Position numbers and translations under genes: made by a program
Notes under the pieces: model-generated
What the model saw: the letters and a program-made list of their open reading frames with translations, nothing else
Databases searched by the model: none
Told to the model about the DNA's origin: nothing
Shown here: positions 1,095-38,907 of the stretch, piece after piece
Position numbering within the stretch: position 1 is the stretch's first letter
How the letters are laid out: every line of letters begins with the position of its first letter
Source: Halobacterium litoreum
Lineage (GTDB): Archaea; Halobacteriota; Halobacteria; Halobacteriales; Halobacteriaceae
DNA: 64,000 nucleotides
Assembly: GCF_021233415.1 (NCBI RefSeq)
Contig: NZ_CP089466.1
Span: 1,364,001 to 1,428,000 of the forward strand
Reading direction: 5' to 3'

Positions 1095-2125
1095 CGCGTG
1101 CGCTGGTGGTCGACGACTCGCATTTCATGCGAACGGTCATCAGCGACATCTTGGAGACCGGAGGCATCGACGTCGTCGACACCGCGTCGAACGGCGCGAA
1201 GGCGGTCGACAAAGTCGCCGACGTGGACCCGGACGTGGTGACGATGGACGTGGAGATGCCGGAGATGAACGGCATCGAAGCGGTCGAAGCCATCATGGAC
1301 GACCACCCGGTGCCGATTCTGATGCTGTCCGCGCTCACCACCGAGGACGCGGACGCCACCCTCGAAGCGATGGAGAAGGGCGCCGTGGACACGTTCGCGA
1401 AGCCCGGCGGCACCATCTCGACGGAGCTCTCCGGCCACAGCGAGGAACTCGTGGCGGCCGTCGAGGACGTCGCCGCCGCGGACCCGACGGCGGGCCACGA
1501 CGTCCAACAGACGACGTCCACGGCCGGCGGGGACGATTTCGTGGACGACCCGACGCTGCTCGTCGGCGCGTCCACGGGCGGGCCGAACGTCGTGGAGTCG
1601 ATTCTGGCGTCGCTCCCGCGGGAGGCGGACTTCCGGATTCTCGTCGTCCAGCACATGCCCGACCAGTTCACGTCGCGGTTCGCGAAGCGACTGGACGAGT
1701 CCAGCGACTACGACATCAAGGAAGCGGCGGACGGCGCGCGCATCGGCGGCGGCGAGGGGTTGGTCGCGCGCGGCGACTACCACATGCGCGTCTCGGGCTA
1801 CTCGAACGGCCGCCTGCGCGTGCGCCTCGACCAGAGCGAGCGACGCCACAGCGTGCGACCCGCCATCGACGTGACGATGGAGAGCGCGGCCGAGCGCGTG
1901 ACCGACCCGACGGTCGCGGCCGTCCTCACCGGGATGGGGACGGACGGCGCCGCGGGCGTTCGCGCAATCAAGGACGCGGGCGGCCACACGTTCGCACAGG
2001 ACGAGGAGACCAGCGCCGTGTTCGGCATCCCGGAGCGCGCCATCGAGACGGGGTGCGTGGACGAGGTGTTGCCGGCCGAACGGCTGACCGAAGCGATCAC
2101 CGACTCGATACGGAGGAGTACGTGA
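1091..2125 (+). CDS. cheB: CheB protein-glutamate methylesterase
   Basis: CheB demethylates and deamidates transducers to give adaptation. The N-terminal receiver has D53 (TMDVEMPEMNG). A linker at residues 120-150 leads to the esterase domain with the catalytic triad S161 (GASTGG), H188 (VVQHMP) and D285 (GMGTDGAAGV). The length of 344 residues is normal for the family. The start ATG overlaps the cheY stop, and the gene ends directly before cheA, so it is within the operon. Confidence 0.97.
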   Translation: MTRALVVDDSHFMRTVISDILETGGIDVVDTASNGAKAVDKVADVDPDVVTMDVEMPEMNGIEAVEAIMDDHPVPILMLSALTTEDADATLEAMEKGAVDTFAKPGGTISTELSGHSEELVAAVEDVAAADPTAGHDVQQTTSTAGGDDFVDDPTLLVGASTGGPNVVESILASLPREADFRILVVQHMPDQFTSRFAKRLDESSDYDIKEAADGARIGGGEGLVARGDYHMRVSGYSNGRLRVRLDQSERRHSVRPAIDVTMESAAERVTDPTVAAVLTGMGTDGAAGVRAIKDAGGHTFAQDEETSAVFGIPERAIETGCVDEVLPAERLTEAITDSIRRST

Positions 2126-4141
2126 ATGGACGACTATCTTGAAGCATTCGTGCGCGAGGGCGAAGAGCACGTCACGAACCTGAACAACGCCTTGCTCGAA
2201 CTGGAGTCGGACCCGGGCAACGAGGAGGCGATGGACGAGATATTCCGGACGGCCCACACGCTGAAGGGGAACTTCGGCGCGATGGGGTTCGAGGGCGCGA
2301 GCGACCTCGCGCACGCCGTCGAGGACCTCTTAGACGAGATGCGACAGGGGGAACTCGAAGTGACCGCGGACCGCATGGACCGCATCTTCGAGGGCATCGA
2401 CGCCATCGAAGCCTGCCTCGACGAAATCGAGGCGAACGGCGAAGTCCAGCGGGACGTGACAGACACCATCGAGTCCGTGCGCGCCGTCCTCGACGAGGCG
2501 GCGGCCGAAGCCGAAGCGGATGCCGCCGCCAGCGACGACGAGGACACCGCCGCCGGATTCGACCCCCTCTCGGTCGTCGACGAAGCGACGGTCGCGGACG
2601 TCGACGCCGGCGTCTACCACGTTCGCGTGGACATGTCCGACTCCGAGATGAAGGGCGTCGACGGGATGTTCGTGTTGGAGGCGGCGACCGAGTCCTTCGA
2701 CCTGCTCGGCGCCGACCCCGAACCGGACGCCATCAACGACGGCGAGTTCGAGGACGGCTTCGACCTCGTGGTCGCCACCGAGATGACGGACGTGAAAGCG
2801 ACCGTCGAGTCGTTCCCGAAACTCACGGGCGCGTCAGTCACCGAGGTCACCGATTTCGACGGCGCGACCGACGAGGAGGACGGCGAGGACGCGGACGACA
2901 CCGTCGACACCGACGACGCGACCGACGCGACGCCGGACGCAGACGAGAGTGCGCCCGCCAGCGACGACGGCAGCGGGGACGACGAGTCTGCGGTGCAGTC
3001 CACCGACACGGAGATTCAGTCCGTGCGCGTGGACGTCGACCAACTCGACGAACTCCACGGCCTCGTCGAGCAACTGGTGACGACGCGCATCAAACTCCGG
3101 CGCGGCGTCGAGGACAGCGAGCGACAGGTCCTCGACGAACTCGACGAACTCGACAAGATTACGTCGAGTCTGCAGGACACCGTGATGGACATGCGGCTGG
3201 TCCCGATGAAGAAAATCGTCGGGAAGTTCCCGCGGCTCGTCCGCGACCTCGCGCGCGAGCAGGACAAACAGATCGACTTCGTCGTGGAGGGCGACGACGT
3301 GGAACTCGACCGCACCATCCTCACCGAAATCAGCGACCCGCTGATGCACCTGCTCCGGAACGCGGTCGACCACGGCATCGAACCGCCCGAAGTCCGCGAG
3401 GCGAACGGCAAAGACCCCGAGGGGACCATCACGCTCTCGGCGGAGCGCGACCGCGACCGCGTGCTCATCCAGGTCGAGGACGACGGCGCCGGAATCGACC
3501 ACGAGACGATGCGGGAGAAAGCCGTCGAGAAGGGCGTCAAGAGCCGCGAGGAAGTCGAAGAGATGCCCGACGGGGAAGTCGAGGACCTCGTCTTCCACCC
3601 CGGCTTCTCCACGAACGAGGAGGTCACGGACGTCTCCGGGCGCGGCGTCGGGATGGACGTCGTGCGCGACACCGTGACCCGCCTCGACGGCTCCGTCTCC
3701 GTCTCCAGCGTCCCCGGCGAGGGGACGACGTTCACGATGACGCTCCCGGTGACCGTCGCCATCGTGAAGGTGCTGTTCGTGGAGAGCGGCGGCGAGGAGT
3801 ACGGCATCCCCATCAAGACCGTCGACGAGATTTCGCGGATGAAGCCCGTGAAGACCGTCGACGGCGAGGAAGTCATCACCTACGACGAGACGGTCTACCC
3901 GCTCGTGCGTCTCGGCGGCGCGCTGAACGTCCCCGGCGAGACGAAAAACGGCGACGGGATGCTCGTGCGCATCCGCGACTCCGAGCGGCAGGTCGCGATT
4001 CACTGCGACGACGTCCGCGGACAGGAGGAAGTCGTCGTCAAGCCATTCGAGGGCATCCTCTCGGGCATCCCCGGCCTGTCCGGCGCGGCGGTGCTCGGCG
4101 AAGGCGACGTGGTCACGATTCTGGACGTTGCGACGCTCTAA
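2126..4141 (+). CDS. cheA: CheA chemotaxis histidine kinase
   Basis: CheA autophosphorylates and feeds CheY and CheB. The 671 residues read in order: an Hpt/P1 domain with H44 in RTAHTLKGN; an acidic P2 region and linker to about residue 290, very rich in D and E; the P3 dimerization helices with the conserved MDMRLVPM; a P4 ATPase with the N box LLRNAVDHG, G1 VEDDGAGID and G2 GRGVGMD; and a C-terminal CheW-like P5 domain. Every catalytic motif is intact. ATG 2126 immediately follows the cheB stop. Confidence 0.97.
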   Translation: MDDYLEAFVREGEEHVTNLNNALLELESDPGNEEAMDEIFRTAHTLKGNFGAMGFEGASDLAHAVEDLLDEMRQGELEVTADRMDRIFEGIDAIEACLDEIEANGEVQRDVTDTIESVRAVLDEAAAEAEADAAASDDEDTAAGFDPLSVVDEATVADVDAGVYHVRVDMSDSEMKGVDGMFVLEAATESFDLLGADPEPDAINDGEFEDGFDLVVATEMTDVKATVESFPKLTGASVTEVTDFDGATDEEDGEDADDTVDTDDATDATPDADESAPASDDGSGDDESAVQSTDTEIQSVRVDVDQLDELHGLVEQLVTTRIKLRRGVEDSERQVLDELDELDKITSSLQDTVMDMRLVPMKKIVGKFPRLVRDLAREQDKQIDFVVEGDDVELDRTILTEISDPLMHLLRNAVDHGIEPPEVREANGKDPEGTITLSAERDRDRVLIQVEDDGAGIDHETMREKAVEKGVKSREEVEEMPDGEVEDLVFHPGFSTNEEVTDVSGRGVGMDVVRDTVTRLDGSVSVSSVPGEGTTFTMTLPVTVAIVKVLFVESGGEEYGIPIKTVDEISRMKPVKTVDGEEVITYDETVYPLVRLGGALNVPGETKNGDGMLVRIRDSERQVAIHCDDVRGQEEVVVKPFEGILSGIPGLSGAAVLGEGDVVTILDVATL

Positions 4142-33963: not shown

Positions 33964-35154
33964 ATGCCCGAGTTCCGACGCGTCCCCGAGGCCGACACCG
34001 AGACGTTCCGCGACCTCGTGCGGTACGCGTTCCGCCCGGAGGCCGGCCCGCCAGACGACGAGGACGAGGAGACGCCCGCCGCCTGGGAGGTCGGCACGCG
34101 GTACGGCCTCTACGACGACGGCGACCTCCGCACCGTCTGCAAACTCGTCGACTTCGAGACGCGCGTCCGCGGCGACGTCCACGCGCTCGACGGCCTGTCG
34201 GCGGTCGCGAGCCCGCCCGAGTCCCGGCGCCAGGGGTACGTCCGCGACCTGCTCGCGGGCGCGCTCCGCGAGTCCCGCGAGAACGACGTCCACCTCTCGG
34301 CGCTCTGGCCGTTCAAGCGCACGTTCTACGGGCAGTACGGCTGGGCGACGTGTAGCCGCGGCGTCGAACACGAGTGCGACCCCGGCGACCTCGCGTTCGC
34401 CCGCGACCGAGACGGCGGCGAATTCGTGCGACTGGACGCCGACGACTGGGAGCGCATGGACGCCGTCCACGACGCGCACGGCGAGCGCTACGAACTCACG
34501 ATGGATCGGACCGAGGAGTGGTGGCGCAAACGCGTGCTGACGGGCTGGGGCGACGACCCGTACGCGTACGGCTTCGAGCGCGACGGCGACCTCGCGGCGT
34601 ACGTCGTCTACGACGTGGACGGCGAGGACGACGGGAAGGTCCTGCGCGCGCAGGACGTGGCGGCCGTCGACCACGACGCGATGCTCGCGCTCCTCCAGTT
34701 TTACGCTGACCACGACTCGCAGGTCGACCGCGTGCGCTTCTGGACGCCCGCCGACGCCGACCTCATGGACGTGATTCCGGACGCCGACGACGTCGAGGCG
34801 TCCCTGCACGTCGGGCCGATGTTCCGGCTCGTGGACGTGCCCGCGGCCCTCGAAGCGCTCTCGTACCCCGAGAGCGTCGCCGGGTCGGTGACGCTCGCGG
34901 TCGCGGACCCGCTGGCCGACTGGAACGACGAGACGTTCCGCCTCTCCGTGGCGGACGGCGAGGGACGGGTCGAGCCCACCGCAGACGACCCGGCGGTCAA
35001 ACTCGGCGTCGGCGCGCTCTCGCAACTGTACGTCGGCTACCGGAGCGCCGAGGAGTTGGCGACGGTCGGCGACCTCGCGGGCGGCGACGAGGCCGCCGAC
35101 TTCCTCGCGAGCGCGTTCCCCGAGCGCCCGACGCTCCTCAGAGAGGGGTTCTGA
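33964..35154 (+). CDS. Eis-like GNAT N-acetyltransferase
   Basis: The 396 residues have an N-terminal GNAT domain with acetyl-CoA loop PESRRQGYVRDLL, the FYGQYGWATCSRGVEHEC segment, a second GNAT-like half, and a C-terminal SCP2-like domain (ADDPAVKLGVGALSQLYVGY). This order is that of Eis/RRNAD-type acetyltransferases, which modify aminoglycosides or other amines in bacteria; the haloarchaeal substrate is unknown. Confidence 0.82.
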   Translation: MPEFRRVPEADTETFRDLVRYAFRPEAGPPDDEDEETPAAWEVGTRYGLYDDGDLRTVCKLVDFETRVRGDVHALDGLSAVASPPESRRQGYVRDLLAGALRESRENDVHLSALWPFKRTFYGQYGWATCSRGVEHECDPGDLAFARDRDGGEFVRLDADDWERMDAVHDAHGERYELTMDRTEEWWRKRVLTGWGDDPYAYGFERDGDLAAYVVYDVDGEDDGKVLRAQDVAAVDHDAMLALLQFYADHDSQVDRVRFWTPADADLMDVIPDADDVEASLHVGPMFRLVDVPAALEALSYPESVAGSVTLAVADPLADWNDETFRLSVADGEGRVEPTADDPAVKLGVGALSQLYVGYRSAEELATVGDLAGGDEAADFLASAFPERPTLLREGF

Positions 35155-35168
35155 GGCGCGCTCCTATC

Positions 35169-35252
35169 CTAACAGCGACAGACACAACAGCAACAGCAGT
35201 CACTCGCGGTCGGTTCGTCGGCGTCCGTCGGTTCACAGCAGTCGGCTGGCAT
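35169..35252 (-). CDS. 27-residue cysteine-rich microprotein
   Basis: A complete small frame with ATG 35250-35252 and TAG 35169-35171 encodes MPADCCEP, a short spacer, and the tail DCCCCCVCRC: nine cysteines in 27 residues. A TATA element GGCTTTATCG (35279-35288, minus strand) lies about 30 bases upstream, exactly the leaderless spacing of other genes here. The Cys density suggests thiolate metal binding, metallothionein-like, but no family is known to me. It is divergent from an HxlR-type regulator with its own Cys-rich tail, so the two probably form a metal or redox response pair. Confidence 0.6.
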   Translation of the reverse strand: MPADCCEPTDADEPTASDCCCCCVCRC

Positions 35253-35278
35253 CGCGTCTCTCACTCGGTCCGCGACTC

Positions 35279-35288
35279 CGATAAAGCC
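35279..35288 (-). promoter_or_regulatory. TATA box of the Cys-rich microprotein gene
   Basis: On the minus strand the bases read GGCTTTATCG. The centre is about 31 bases above ATG 35252, typical for leaderless haloarchaeal transcripts. It is the main evidence that the microprotein frame is expressed. Confidence 0.5.
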
Positions 35289-35309
35289 GCAGTAGCCGCC
35301 CGAATACGA

Positions 35310-35327
35310 GGTTTCCGCGCGGAAACC
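35310..35327. promoter_or_regulatory. Perfect 18-bp palindrome between microprotein and HxlR gene
   Basis: GGTTTCCGCGCGGAAACC is its own reverse complement over all 18 bases. It ends 14 bases before ATG 35342 of the HxlR-family regulator and lies 57 bases above the microprotein ATG. A homodimeric winged-helix protein would bind such a site; autoregulation with control of the divergent gene is the simplest reading. Confidence 0.6.
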
Positions 35328-35341
35328 GCGCCCGACAATTG

Positions 35342-35728
35342 ATGCCCGTGGAGCGCGACCCGTCGGACATGGACGACTGGCAGGAGACCTGGCACCGCGT
35401 TCACGACGTGCTCGGCCACAAGTGGGCGTTCCACGTGCTCCGCGCGCTCGCCGACGGCGACCGCGGCTTCAACGGACTGAAAGACGACCTCCGCGTCCGG
35501 TCGAAGGCGCTGTCCGCGCGCCTCTCTGACCTGCGGTGTGCCGGCCTCGTCGAGCGAGAGGTCGAGGCGACGACGCCGCCGCGGACGACCTACCGACTCA
35601 CCGAGGAAGGGGCGGAGTTCGTCGGCGCGCTCCTGCGCATCGAGGAGATGGCCGACGTGGTGCCGTGTGGCTGTGGCGACGACTGCGAGACGCTGTCCGT
35701 CGCCGACCCGCCGACCTGCGAGTGTTGA
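35342..35728 (+). CDS. HxlR-family winged-helix regulator with a Cys-rich C-terminus
   Basis: The 128 residues match HxlR regulators: HRVHDVLGHKWAFHVLRALA, GFNGLKDDL, the recognition helix SKALSARLSDLRCAGLV and a wing with TTYRLTEEGAEF. Added to the usual fold is a tail with C109, C111, C115, C126 and C128 (CGCGDDC, then CEC), plus C66 in the helix region. This suggests control by thiol oxidation or metal binding. ATG 35369 is an alternative start. The perfect palindrome lies just upstream. Confidence 0.85.
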   Translation: MPVERDPSDMDDWQETWHRVHDVLGHKWAFHVLRALADGDRGFNGLKDDLRVRSKALSARLSDLRCAGLVEREVEATTPPRTTYRLTEEGAEFVGALLRIEEMADVVPCGCGDDCETLSVADPPTCEC

Positions 35729-37404: not shown

Positions 37405-38907
37405 ATGGACCCCGACACAGCAGGCCGCGAGGTCGACTCGGACCAAATCGCCGCGCTCAGGGGCGCCGTCGACGCGGACGGCGTCGAATCGCTCGTCGAG
37501 GCGCTCGACAGCGACGACGCCGACGTGCGCGCCGGCGCCGCGTGGCGCCTCGTGGAATCCGCGACCAGCGAACCGACGACGGTGCGCGCGCACCTCGACA
37601 GCGTCGTCGAGTGCGTGAGCGACGACGACGTGTGGGTGCGCCGGGGCGCGACGTGGGTGCTCGCGGAACTCGCGGAGGAGCAACCCGACGCGCTCTCCGT
37701 GAAGTTCTCGGACCTCGTGGAGTTGACGCGCGCCGACGACCCGCTCGTCCGGCAGAACGGCGTGGTCGCCGTGGCGGGCGTGACGAAGTCGTATCCGGCG
37801 CGCGCGACGGCGGGGCTGACGAGTATCGCGCCGCTGACGCGCTCCGAGGACGCGCTGTTGCGGCGGTACGCGAAGCAGGCGGTCCGCGAGGTGACGAAGG
37901 CGATAGCCGAGCGCGCCGACGACGCCGGCTACCCGATGCTGGTTCGCGCGCACCCGGCGTACGCCGAGTTGTTCCCCGAGGGCGTCTCCGTCGTCACGAC
38001 GACCGAGGACGAGCAGCCACAGCCGGTGTACGTCTCGTTCGGCGAGGACGCGCCGAAGCAGGTGGACGACGACGAGTCGTCGGTCGCTGACCGCCCGCCG
38101 GAAGACGTGCCGGCGCCGCCCGACCTCTCGCTGTCGCGGGACGAACTCGACCCGAACATGGAACTCCGCGAGGGCGTGCTGACGACGGACCACCGGGCGG
38201 CCGTCGACGAGGACACGCTGGAGCACGGGCTGGTGACGTTCCGGCGACTGCACGTGGACGACCCGTCGGTCCGGTCGGCGTTCCGCGACGGCGTGGACGC
38301 GTGGGCGGCGGTCGACGGGCACGACCACGTGATGCCCGTGCTGGGACGGGGCGACGACTGGGTGGCGACCCAGTACGACGACGGCGCGACGCTCGACCGG
38401 CGGGGCGCGCCGGAGACGCTGCGCGCGGCGGTGTGGACGGCGGGCGCGGTGACGAAGGCAGTGAGTCACGCGCACGCTCGCGGCGTCGTCCACGGGGGGC
38501 TCCACCCGGGCGCGGTTCGGTTCGTGGACACCGGGTCGGGCTACTGGGACGCGCCCGTCGTGGGCGGCTGGGGGTTCGCGCACGCCGCGAGCGCCGTCTA
38601 CACGCCGCCCGTGCCGGACGCGTTCGCGGCGCCGGAACACCGCGAGCCGGAGACGTACGGGCGCTTCGACCAGGCGACGGACGTGTTCGGCCTCGGCGCG
38701 GTGACGTACTTCCTGTTGACCGGCGAGAGGCCCGTGACCGGCGGCGAGTTGGTGCCCGCGACCCGGCAGAACCCGGCGCTCCCGGCGTCCGCCGACGACC
38801 TGTTCGCGCTCTCCGTCGTCGACGAGAAGCCGGGGCGCTTCGACACCGTGTTGGACTTCCAGCGCGCGCTCGACGGCGTCGCGGCCGACGTCGGAGGTGA
38901 GGCCTGA
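37405..38907 (+). CDS. HEAT-repeat protein fused to a pseudokinase domain
   Basis: The first 190 of 500 residues form HEAT repeats (DVRAGAAWRLVESATS; DVWVRRGATWVLAEL). A linker of about 80 acidic residues leads to a protein-kinase-like domain (about 255-495). The catalytic loop reads VVHGGLHPGAVRF (HGG at 363-365 for HRD), the DFG position reads WGF (389-391), while the APE-like AAPEHREPE and DVFGLGAVTYFLLTGERP remain. The catalytic Asp and metal-binding Asp are therefore gone. It shares a 1-base overlap with a membrane protein and is probably a signalling scaffold. Confidence 0.78.
   Translation: MDPDTAGREVDSDQIAALRGAVDADGVESLVEALDSDDADVRAGAAWRLVESATSEPTTVRAHLDSVVECVSDDDVWVRRGATWVLAELAEEQPDALSVKFSDLVELTRADDPLVRQNGVVAVAGVTKSYPARATAGLTSIAPLTRSEDALLRRYAKQAVREVTKAIAERADDAGYPMLVRAHPAYAELFPEGVSVVTTTEDEQPQPVYVSFGEDAPKQVDDDESSVADRPPEDVPAPPDLSLSRDELDPNMELREGVLTTDHRAAVDEDTLEHGLVTFRRLHVDDPSVRSAFRDGVDAWAAVDGHDHVMPVLGRGDDWVATQYDDGATLDRRGAPETLRAAVWTAGAVTKAVSHAHARGVVHGGLHPGAVRFVDTGSGYWDAPVVGGWGFAHAASAVYTPPVPDAFAAPEHREPETYGRFDQATDVFGLGAVTYFLLTGERPVTGGELVPATRQNPALPASADDLFALSVVDEKPGRFDTVLDFQRALDGVAADVGGEA

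Follow-up and report, generated by a model that had tools for sequence, protein, structure and literature searches.

A Cys-rich microprotein and a divergent Cys-tailed HxlR regulator form a conserved haloarchaeal module that probably protects, in a way not described before, from toxic metals or other chemicals that attack thiols

Divergent pairing of a winged-helix sensor with a small Cys-rich protein is known from cyanobacteria, where the gene of the ArsR-family repressor SmtB is divergent from the metallothionein gene of the SmtB-SmtA system. In Firmicutes, the MarR/DUF24 sensors YodB, HypR, QsrR and HxlR are small winged-helix regulators with palindromic operators and an N-terminal sensing Cys (Cys14 in HypR, Cys6 in YodB; PMC6943732, PMC8063818). 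In YodB, the C-terminal Cys101 is used too: when diamide is present, it becomes disulfide-bonded to Cys6 of the opposite subunit (PMC8063818). Three further systems are relevant. The haloarchaeal ars cluster (acr3-arsR / arsD-arsA-hcsL-hcsS), as on pHLAC01 of Halorubrum lacusprofundi, includes a Cys-tailed HxlR regulator of a clade sister to the one described here, together with HcsL and HcsS, which end in CC. Haloferax encodes C(P)XCG zinc-finger micro-proteins of <70 aa with metal-type Cys motifs (PMC11241148). Finally, mycobacterial polycysteine leaderless sORFs mediate Cys-responsive attenuation (Canestrari et al. 2020, cited in PMC9031893).

We analysed a window of 64,000 nucleotides from Halobacterium litoreum (contig NZ_CP089466.1, positions 1,364,001 to 1,428,000). 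An earlier note, made from the sequence of this window, had described a 27-codon frame with nine Cys and a well-placed promoter, divergent from an HxlR regulator with five C-terminal Cys, and a perfect 18-bp palindrome between the two genes. Each of these elements was recovered (Table 1). The TATA-like box lies 27 nt upstream of the microprotein ATG, and the regulator carries one further Cys in its winged-helix domain. Agreeing also with the note, which knew of no such haloarchaeal system, we found no description of the microprotein-HxlR module in the open-access literature searched.

Table 1. Features of the module, in positions of the window
Feature	Position	Strand	Basis
Cys-rich microprotein CDS	35169..35252	-	Frame read directly; homologous position in relatives and purifying selection; promoter spacing
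Microprotein TATA-like box, CTTTATC	35280..35286	-	Sequence; matches TA-rich columns of 30 loci
TCAGT box (GCAGT in the window)	35289..35293		Conservation at fixed distance from the dyad, 30 loci
Putative operator dyad, perfect 18-bp palindrome GGTTTCCGCGCGGAAACC	35310..35327		Sequence, uniqueness, recurrence at related loci
HxlR/DUF24 winged-helix regulator, 119 aa	35369..35728	+	PF01638; AlphaFold/Foldseek; start by comparison with relatives

The module resembles SmtB-SmtA in that a divergent winged-helix sensor and a small Cys-rich protein share one control region, but the window regulator belongs to PF01638 HxlR and not to ArsR/SmtB, the peptide has no Pfam match, and the dyad precedes the partner TATA box. 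With the Firmicutes DUF24 sensors it shares Pfam family, fold and small size, a palindrome as putative operator and, as in YodB, a Cys near the C-terminus. In place of their N-terminal sensing Cys, however, it has a winged-helix Cys and a five-Cys tail, and regulators of the window type differ further in facing a divergent Cys-rich microprotein or DUF2703 partner. The pHLAC01-type ars cluster contains no microprotein of this kind (HcsL, a YlbF-type protein of 122 aa, is unlike it) and no dyad, and the window module has no adjacent ars genes. Unlike the Haloferax proteins, the window peptide has a consecutive Cys run and no C(P)XCG, and is tied to an HxlR regulator.

The microprotein, MPADCCEPTDADEPTASDCCCCCVCRC, is 27 aa long and contains 9 Cys (33% Cys), its minus-strand frame starting with ATG at 35252 and stopping with TAG at 35169-35171. 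Among 2,399 ATG/GTG start-stop combinations scanned in the window, no other frame of 20 codons or more reached 25% Cys, and its five consecutive Cys codons occur once in the 2.7-Mb genome. Like metallothioneins, it and its relatives (27-78 aa, 8-17 Cys) are small and very Cys-rich; it matched no recognised sequence family in Pfam or NCBIfam, and the halo-CC-star NCBIfam models matched neither it nor four relatives. Searches of family libraries with the relatives returned nothing significant, apart from one homologue that scored 16.8 bits with the streptolysin S family, below the cut-off of 35. That match would be in keeping with a modified-peptide precursor (RiPP or TOMM-like), but it looks compositional. 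As no maturation enzyme or exporter was present among the neighbouring genes read, we rejected this reading as scarcely credible.

We searched 392 genomes of the order and found a close regulator in 40 (E up to 1e-18); searches of two families added more. Tailed HxlR regulators divergent from a Cys-rich microprotein were present at 22 loci spanning five haloarchaeal families (f1, f5, f6, f8 and f17). Such conservation of the pairing among the relatives examined strongly supports the note's proposal of a single module made up of microprotein, tailed regulator and palindrome, which thereby passes the conservation test that the note had set for it. Microprotein dN/dS was 0.12-0.64 in the six pairs with defined dS, drawn from three groups of relatives, ratios that are rough because the frames are short. 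Cys positions were kept (8/8, 10/10 or 10/11) while TGC and TGT swapped, which rules out a triplet-repeat artefact as the origin of the poly-Cys frame. Judged from these substitution patterns, the frame is a protein gene under purifying selection.

A phylum-wide search of 247 genomes identified no close relative outside the order, and the sole match in a GTDB pattern scan with the window regulator was a Corynebacterium protein, 38% identical. Within the genus, the NOX, GNAT and OB-fold neighbours surround the same site, partly or wholly, in 13 genomes. The window genome alone has the module, and its absence from the 12 other genomes of the genus indicates that it is dispensable. In the f5 family, the module occupies a matching site beside NOX and an OB-fold gene. 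This suggests that the module has been inherited with frequent loss, or else exchanged at the same site.

The microprotein mRNA is probably leaderless, and its frame is short with consecutive Cys codons near the end, as in the mycobacterial sORFs. In addition, a co-oriented CDF cation-efflux gene directly follows the microprotein, ∼53-78 nt downstream, at 7/7 of the f17 loci. A poly-Cys leader peptide, slowly translated at Cys shortage and thereby controlling a downstream gene, would have these properties. By contrast with the mycobacterial case, however, the window has a dedicated divergent regulator and dyad, and no co-oriented downstream operon. Both in the window (GNAT, ending at 35154) and in f5 (DUF7547), the neighbouring gene is convergent, leaving nothing to attenuate, and the frames of relatives can be as long as 78 aa, with Cys clusters over their whole length. 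With a convergent neighbour and no co-oriented operon in the window, attenuation was rejected as highly improbable.

We then turned to the regulator, which matched PF01638 HxlR with E=1.7e-15 and 57.1 bits (cut-off 20.8). Its likely start is the ATG at 35369; other in-frame starts lie at 35339, 35342 and 35348. The AlphaFold model (pLDDT 89.9) has the winged-helix DUF24 fold, with HypR, QsrR and YodB as best Foldseek matches (TM-score 0.65-0.83), and YodB was also the top PDB sequence match. Cys57 lies in the winged-helix domain and the five tail Cys (101, 103, 107, 117 and 119) all fall within the last 19 residues. The first tail Cys aligns with YodB Cys101, or one residue off at most. All tailed regulators aligned have a winged-helix Cys within an L-x-C segment (LRCAGL in the window regulator) as well as tail Cys, and none has an N-terminal redox Cys, the window regulator having LGHKW there. 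Among eight untailed relatives, 6/8 keep the N-terminal Cys (GCKW/SCKW), and none has a Cys-rich partner beside it. Lack of the N-terminal Cys, presence of winged-helix and tail Cys, and the near-coincidence with YodB Cys101 make it seem that the sensing Cys of tailed regulators has been re-sited from the N-terminus. One untailed HxlR gene (L063 of G189; 1-534, 1459-1806, 1992-3248) lies between homologues of the window NADH:flavin oxidoreductase and GNAT genes, so that HxlR genes are met with here again where both tail and microprotein are missing.

A palindrome does not by itself argue strongly for an operator, since a second perfect 18-bp palindrome, GTCCTGCGCGCGCAGGAC, is present at 34639-34656 inside the GNAT/SCP2 gene (33964-35154), probably by chance within coding sequence. 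What gives the dyad its weight is that GGTTTC-N6-GAAACC occurs exactly once in the window genome and is found again at the corresponding position of related loci. Allowing ≤2 mismatches, it was found at 17/22 microprotein loci against 8/440 dinucleotide shuffles, and at 9/14 loci with a DUF2703 partner against 0/280; a good dyad was wanting at 5/22 microprotein loci. No dyad was found at ars-linked regulator loci, and 1/8 untailed loci reached it, with two mismatches.

We aligned the control regions of 30 loci with a microprotein or DUF2703 partner, anchored on the dyad (positions 0-17). The partner start codon lies at about -60, a TA-rich box at -31 to -26, and TCAGT at -21 to -17 (CAGT positions 90-97% conserved), followed by an A-rich stretch to -4; at microprotein loci, a regulator TTTA box lies ∼30 beyond the dyad. 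On this alignment, the palindrome is part of a composite promoter in which start codon, TATA, TCAGT and GGTTTC-N6-GAAACC keep a fixed spacing. The TCAGT box is possibly half of a second, degenerate operator. The regulator presumably binds the dyad as its operator. L077 and L078, microprotein loci that belong to a single subclade, lack the common dyad; GACTGTC/GACAGTC inverted repeats were seen by eye instead in the intergenic regions upstream of their regulators, and the recognition-helix residues there are EKSLA or EKTLS versus AKTLS. That operator and residues both differ hints that the operator changed with the DNA-reading helix.

Exact dyads in 24 related genomes numbered nine in the module and seven elsewhere. 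Six of these seven were inspected, four being in coding sequence and two between genes, and they revealed no common target. This, and the single exact dyad of the window genome, make the regulator look local. One of the two dyads between genes (G224, L111 1501-1518) lies just upstream of a zinc-ribbon-like frame, MGYCPYC..., and is possibly a second target, or chance.

The genes adjoining the window module encode a GNAT/SCP2 protein, an NADH:flavin oxidoreductase, an OB-fold-type protein and a thiolase-like protein. As the gene after the regulator is convergent, like GNAT on the microprotein side, the module is a two-gene island. A 500-aa protein farther along (37405-38907) carries HEAT repeats at its N-terminus and, in its C-terminal part, a weak match to protein kinases that stays below threshold.

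Regulators of this group cluster by neighbour: 22 with a microprotein, 14 with DUF2703 and seven ars-linked. Opposite the 14, most of which have the same promoter architecture, lies a gene for a thioredoxin-like DUF2703 protein whose tail is Cys-rich. A Rhodococcus DUF2703 member lies within an ars cluster and is arsenate-induced (PMC6514093). A DUF2703 search gave no match in the window genome, nor in any control genome, so the window genome may nonetheless encode such a protein. The seven sister regulators are located downstream of an Rdx gene, with named examples on Halorubrum and Halorussus plasmids, and one further Rdx-linked regulator is on a Halosimplex plasmid. Where the wider context was read, these loci belonged to arsenic clusters that also encode Acr3, ArsR, ArsD, ArsA and halo-CC-star proteins; other Rdx-linked regulators adjoin ArsM-like and ArsR genes. 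Small HcsL/HcsS proteins of such clusters (L092 5188-5556, L119 4838-5385) end in CC like many microproteins, and no model links the two.

DUF2703 partners also bear on whether the chief role of the microprotein is regulatory, as feedback on the regulator by metal or disulfide exchange with its Cys tail. Both partners are Cys-rich and co-occur, and the untailed relatives are partnerless, as such feedback might lead one to expect. Against this, at 14 loci a larger DUF2703 protein fills the same position, as would suit an effector better than a peptide ligand made for this purpose, and we regard a mainly regulatory role as unlikely.

Taken together, the ars-linked sister regulators, the DUF2703 partners and the f17 CDF gene hint at metal(loid) stress. 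They constitute indirect support only for thiol or metal sensing by the module. The absence of the module from the 12 other genomes of the genus and of a good dyad from 5/22 microprotein loci counts against such a switch, and further points weaken the metal reading. Linkage to ars transport or reduction genes was found for sister clades and not at the window module or in its own clade, and one mobile ars cluster could account for it. Furthermore, the DUF24 proteins described in PMC6943732 and PMC8063818 sense quinones, diamide, aldehydes or hypochlorite, not metals.

The main rival is an electrophile or disulfide-stress switch. In it, the regulator would sense quinones, aldehydes, hypochlorite or diamide through modification of its thiols, in the manner of bacterial DUF24 proteins, and the peptide would not bind metal but supply thiols to be sacrificed. 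The nearest solved structures are all electrophile or redox sensors, the first tail Cys aligns to within one residue with the diamide-reactive Cys101 of YodB, and an old-yellow-enzyme-type NADH:flavin oxidoreductase lies near the module both in f5 and in the window. These points must be set against tailed regulators that have no N-terminal redox Cys, sister regulators that sit within arsenic clusters, CDF efflux genes that follow the f17 microproteins, and CC and CCCC clusters that would fit metal binding. We consider this rival a serious but distinctly less probable explanation.

Our preferred reading, which we hold with moderate confidence, takes the module for a thiol-based switch that answers to metal(loid) or thiol stress and has a metallothionein-like peptide for its effector; it probably serves as a hitherto undescribed protection from toxic metals or other chemicals that attack thiols. 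In this self-contained switch, a dimeric HxlR/DUF24 regulator would bind the GGTTTC-N6-GAAACC dyad between the two promoters. Its tail and winged-helix Cys would bind a soft metal or metalloid, either As(III)/Sb(III) or one of Cu, Zn, Cd and Hg, or be otherwise modified, and the ligand-bound or modified regulator would alter how the divergent gene is transcribed. Given that both dyad and TCAGT box precede the partner TATA box, the regulator probably activates the partner gene, while also autoregulating its own; repression of the partner is the less likely alternative. The divergent gene would then give a leaderless mRNA and a very small peptide, up to one-third Cys, that may sequester the ion like a metallothionein. 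More tentatively, and at somewhat less than even chances, the tailed regulators may represent a haloarchaeal DUF24 branch of metal(loid) sensors in which the sensing Cys moved to the winged-helix domain and tail, and in which one promoter architecture serves interchangeable thiol-rich effectors, either a poly-Cys peptide from 27 residues or DUF2703.

In the part consulted, a review of haloarchaeal metal resistance gives gamma-glutamylcysteine as the haloarchaeal thiol chelator and describes no such Cys-rich peptide in haloarchaea (PMC3600143). If the preferred reading is true, archaea would gain a metallothionein-like peptide family, so short that gene finders may skip its members, together with an HxlR/DUF24 regulator whose sensing relies on a Cys tail and not on the known N-terminal Cys. 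The conserved composite promoter offers a ready test of transcription control by an archaeal thiol/metal sensor.
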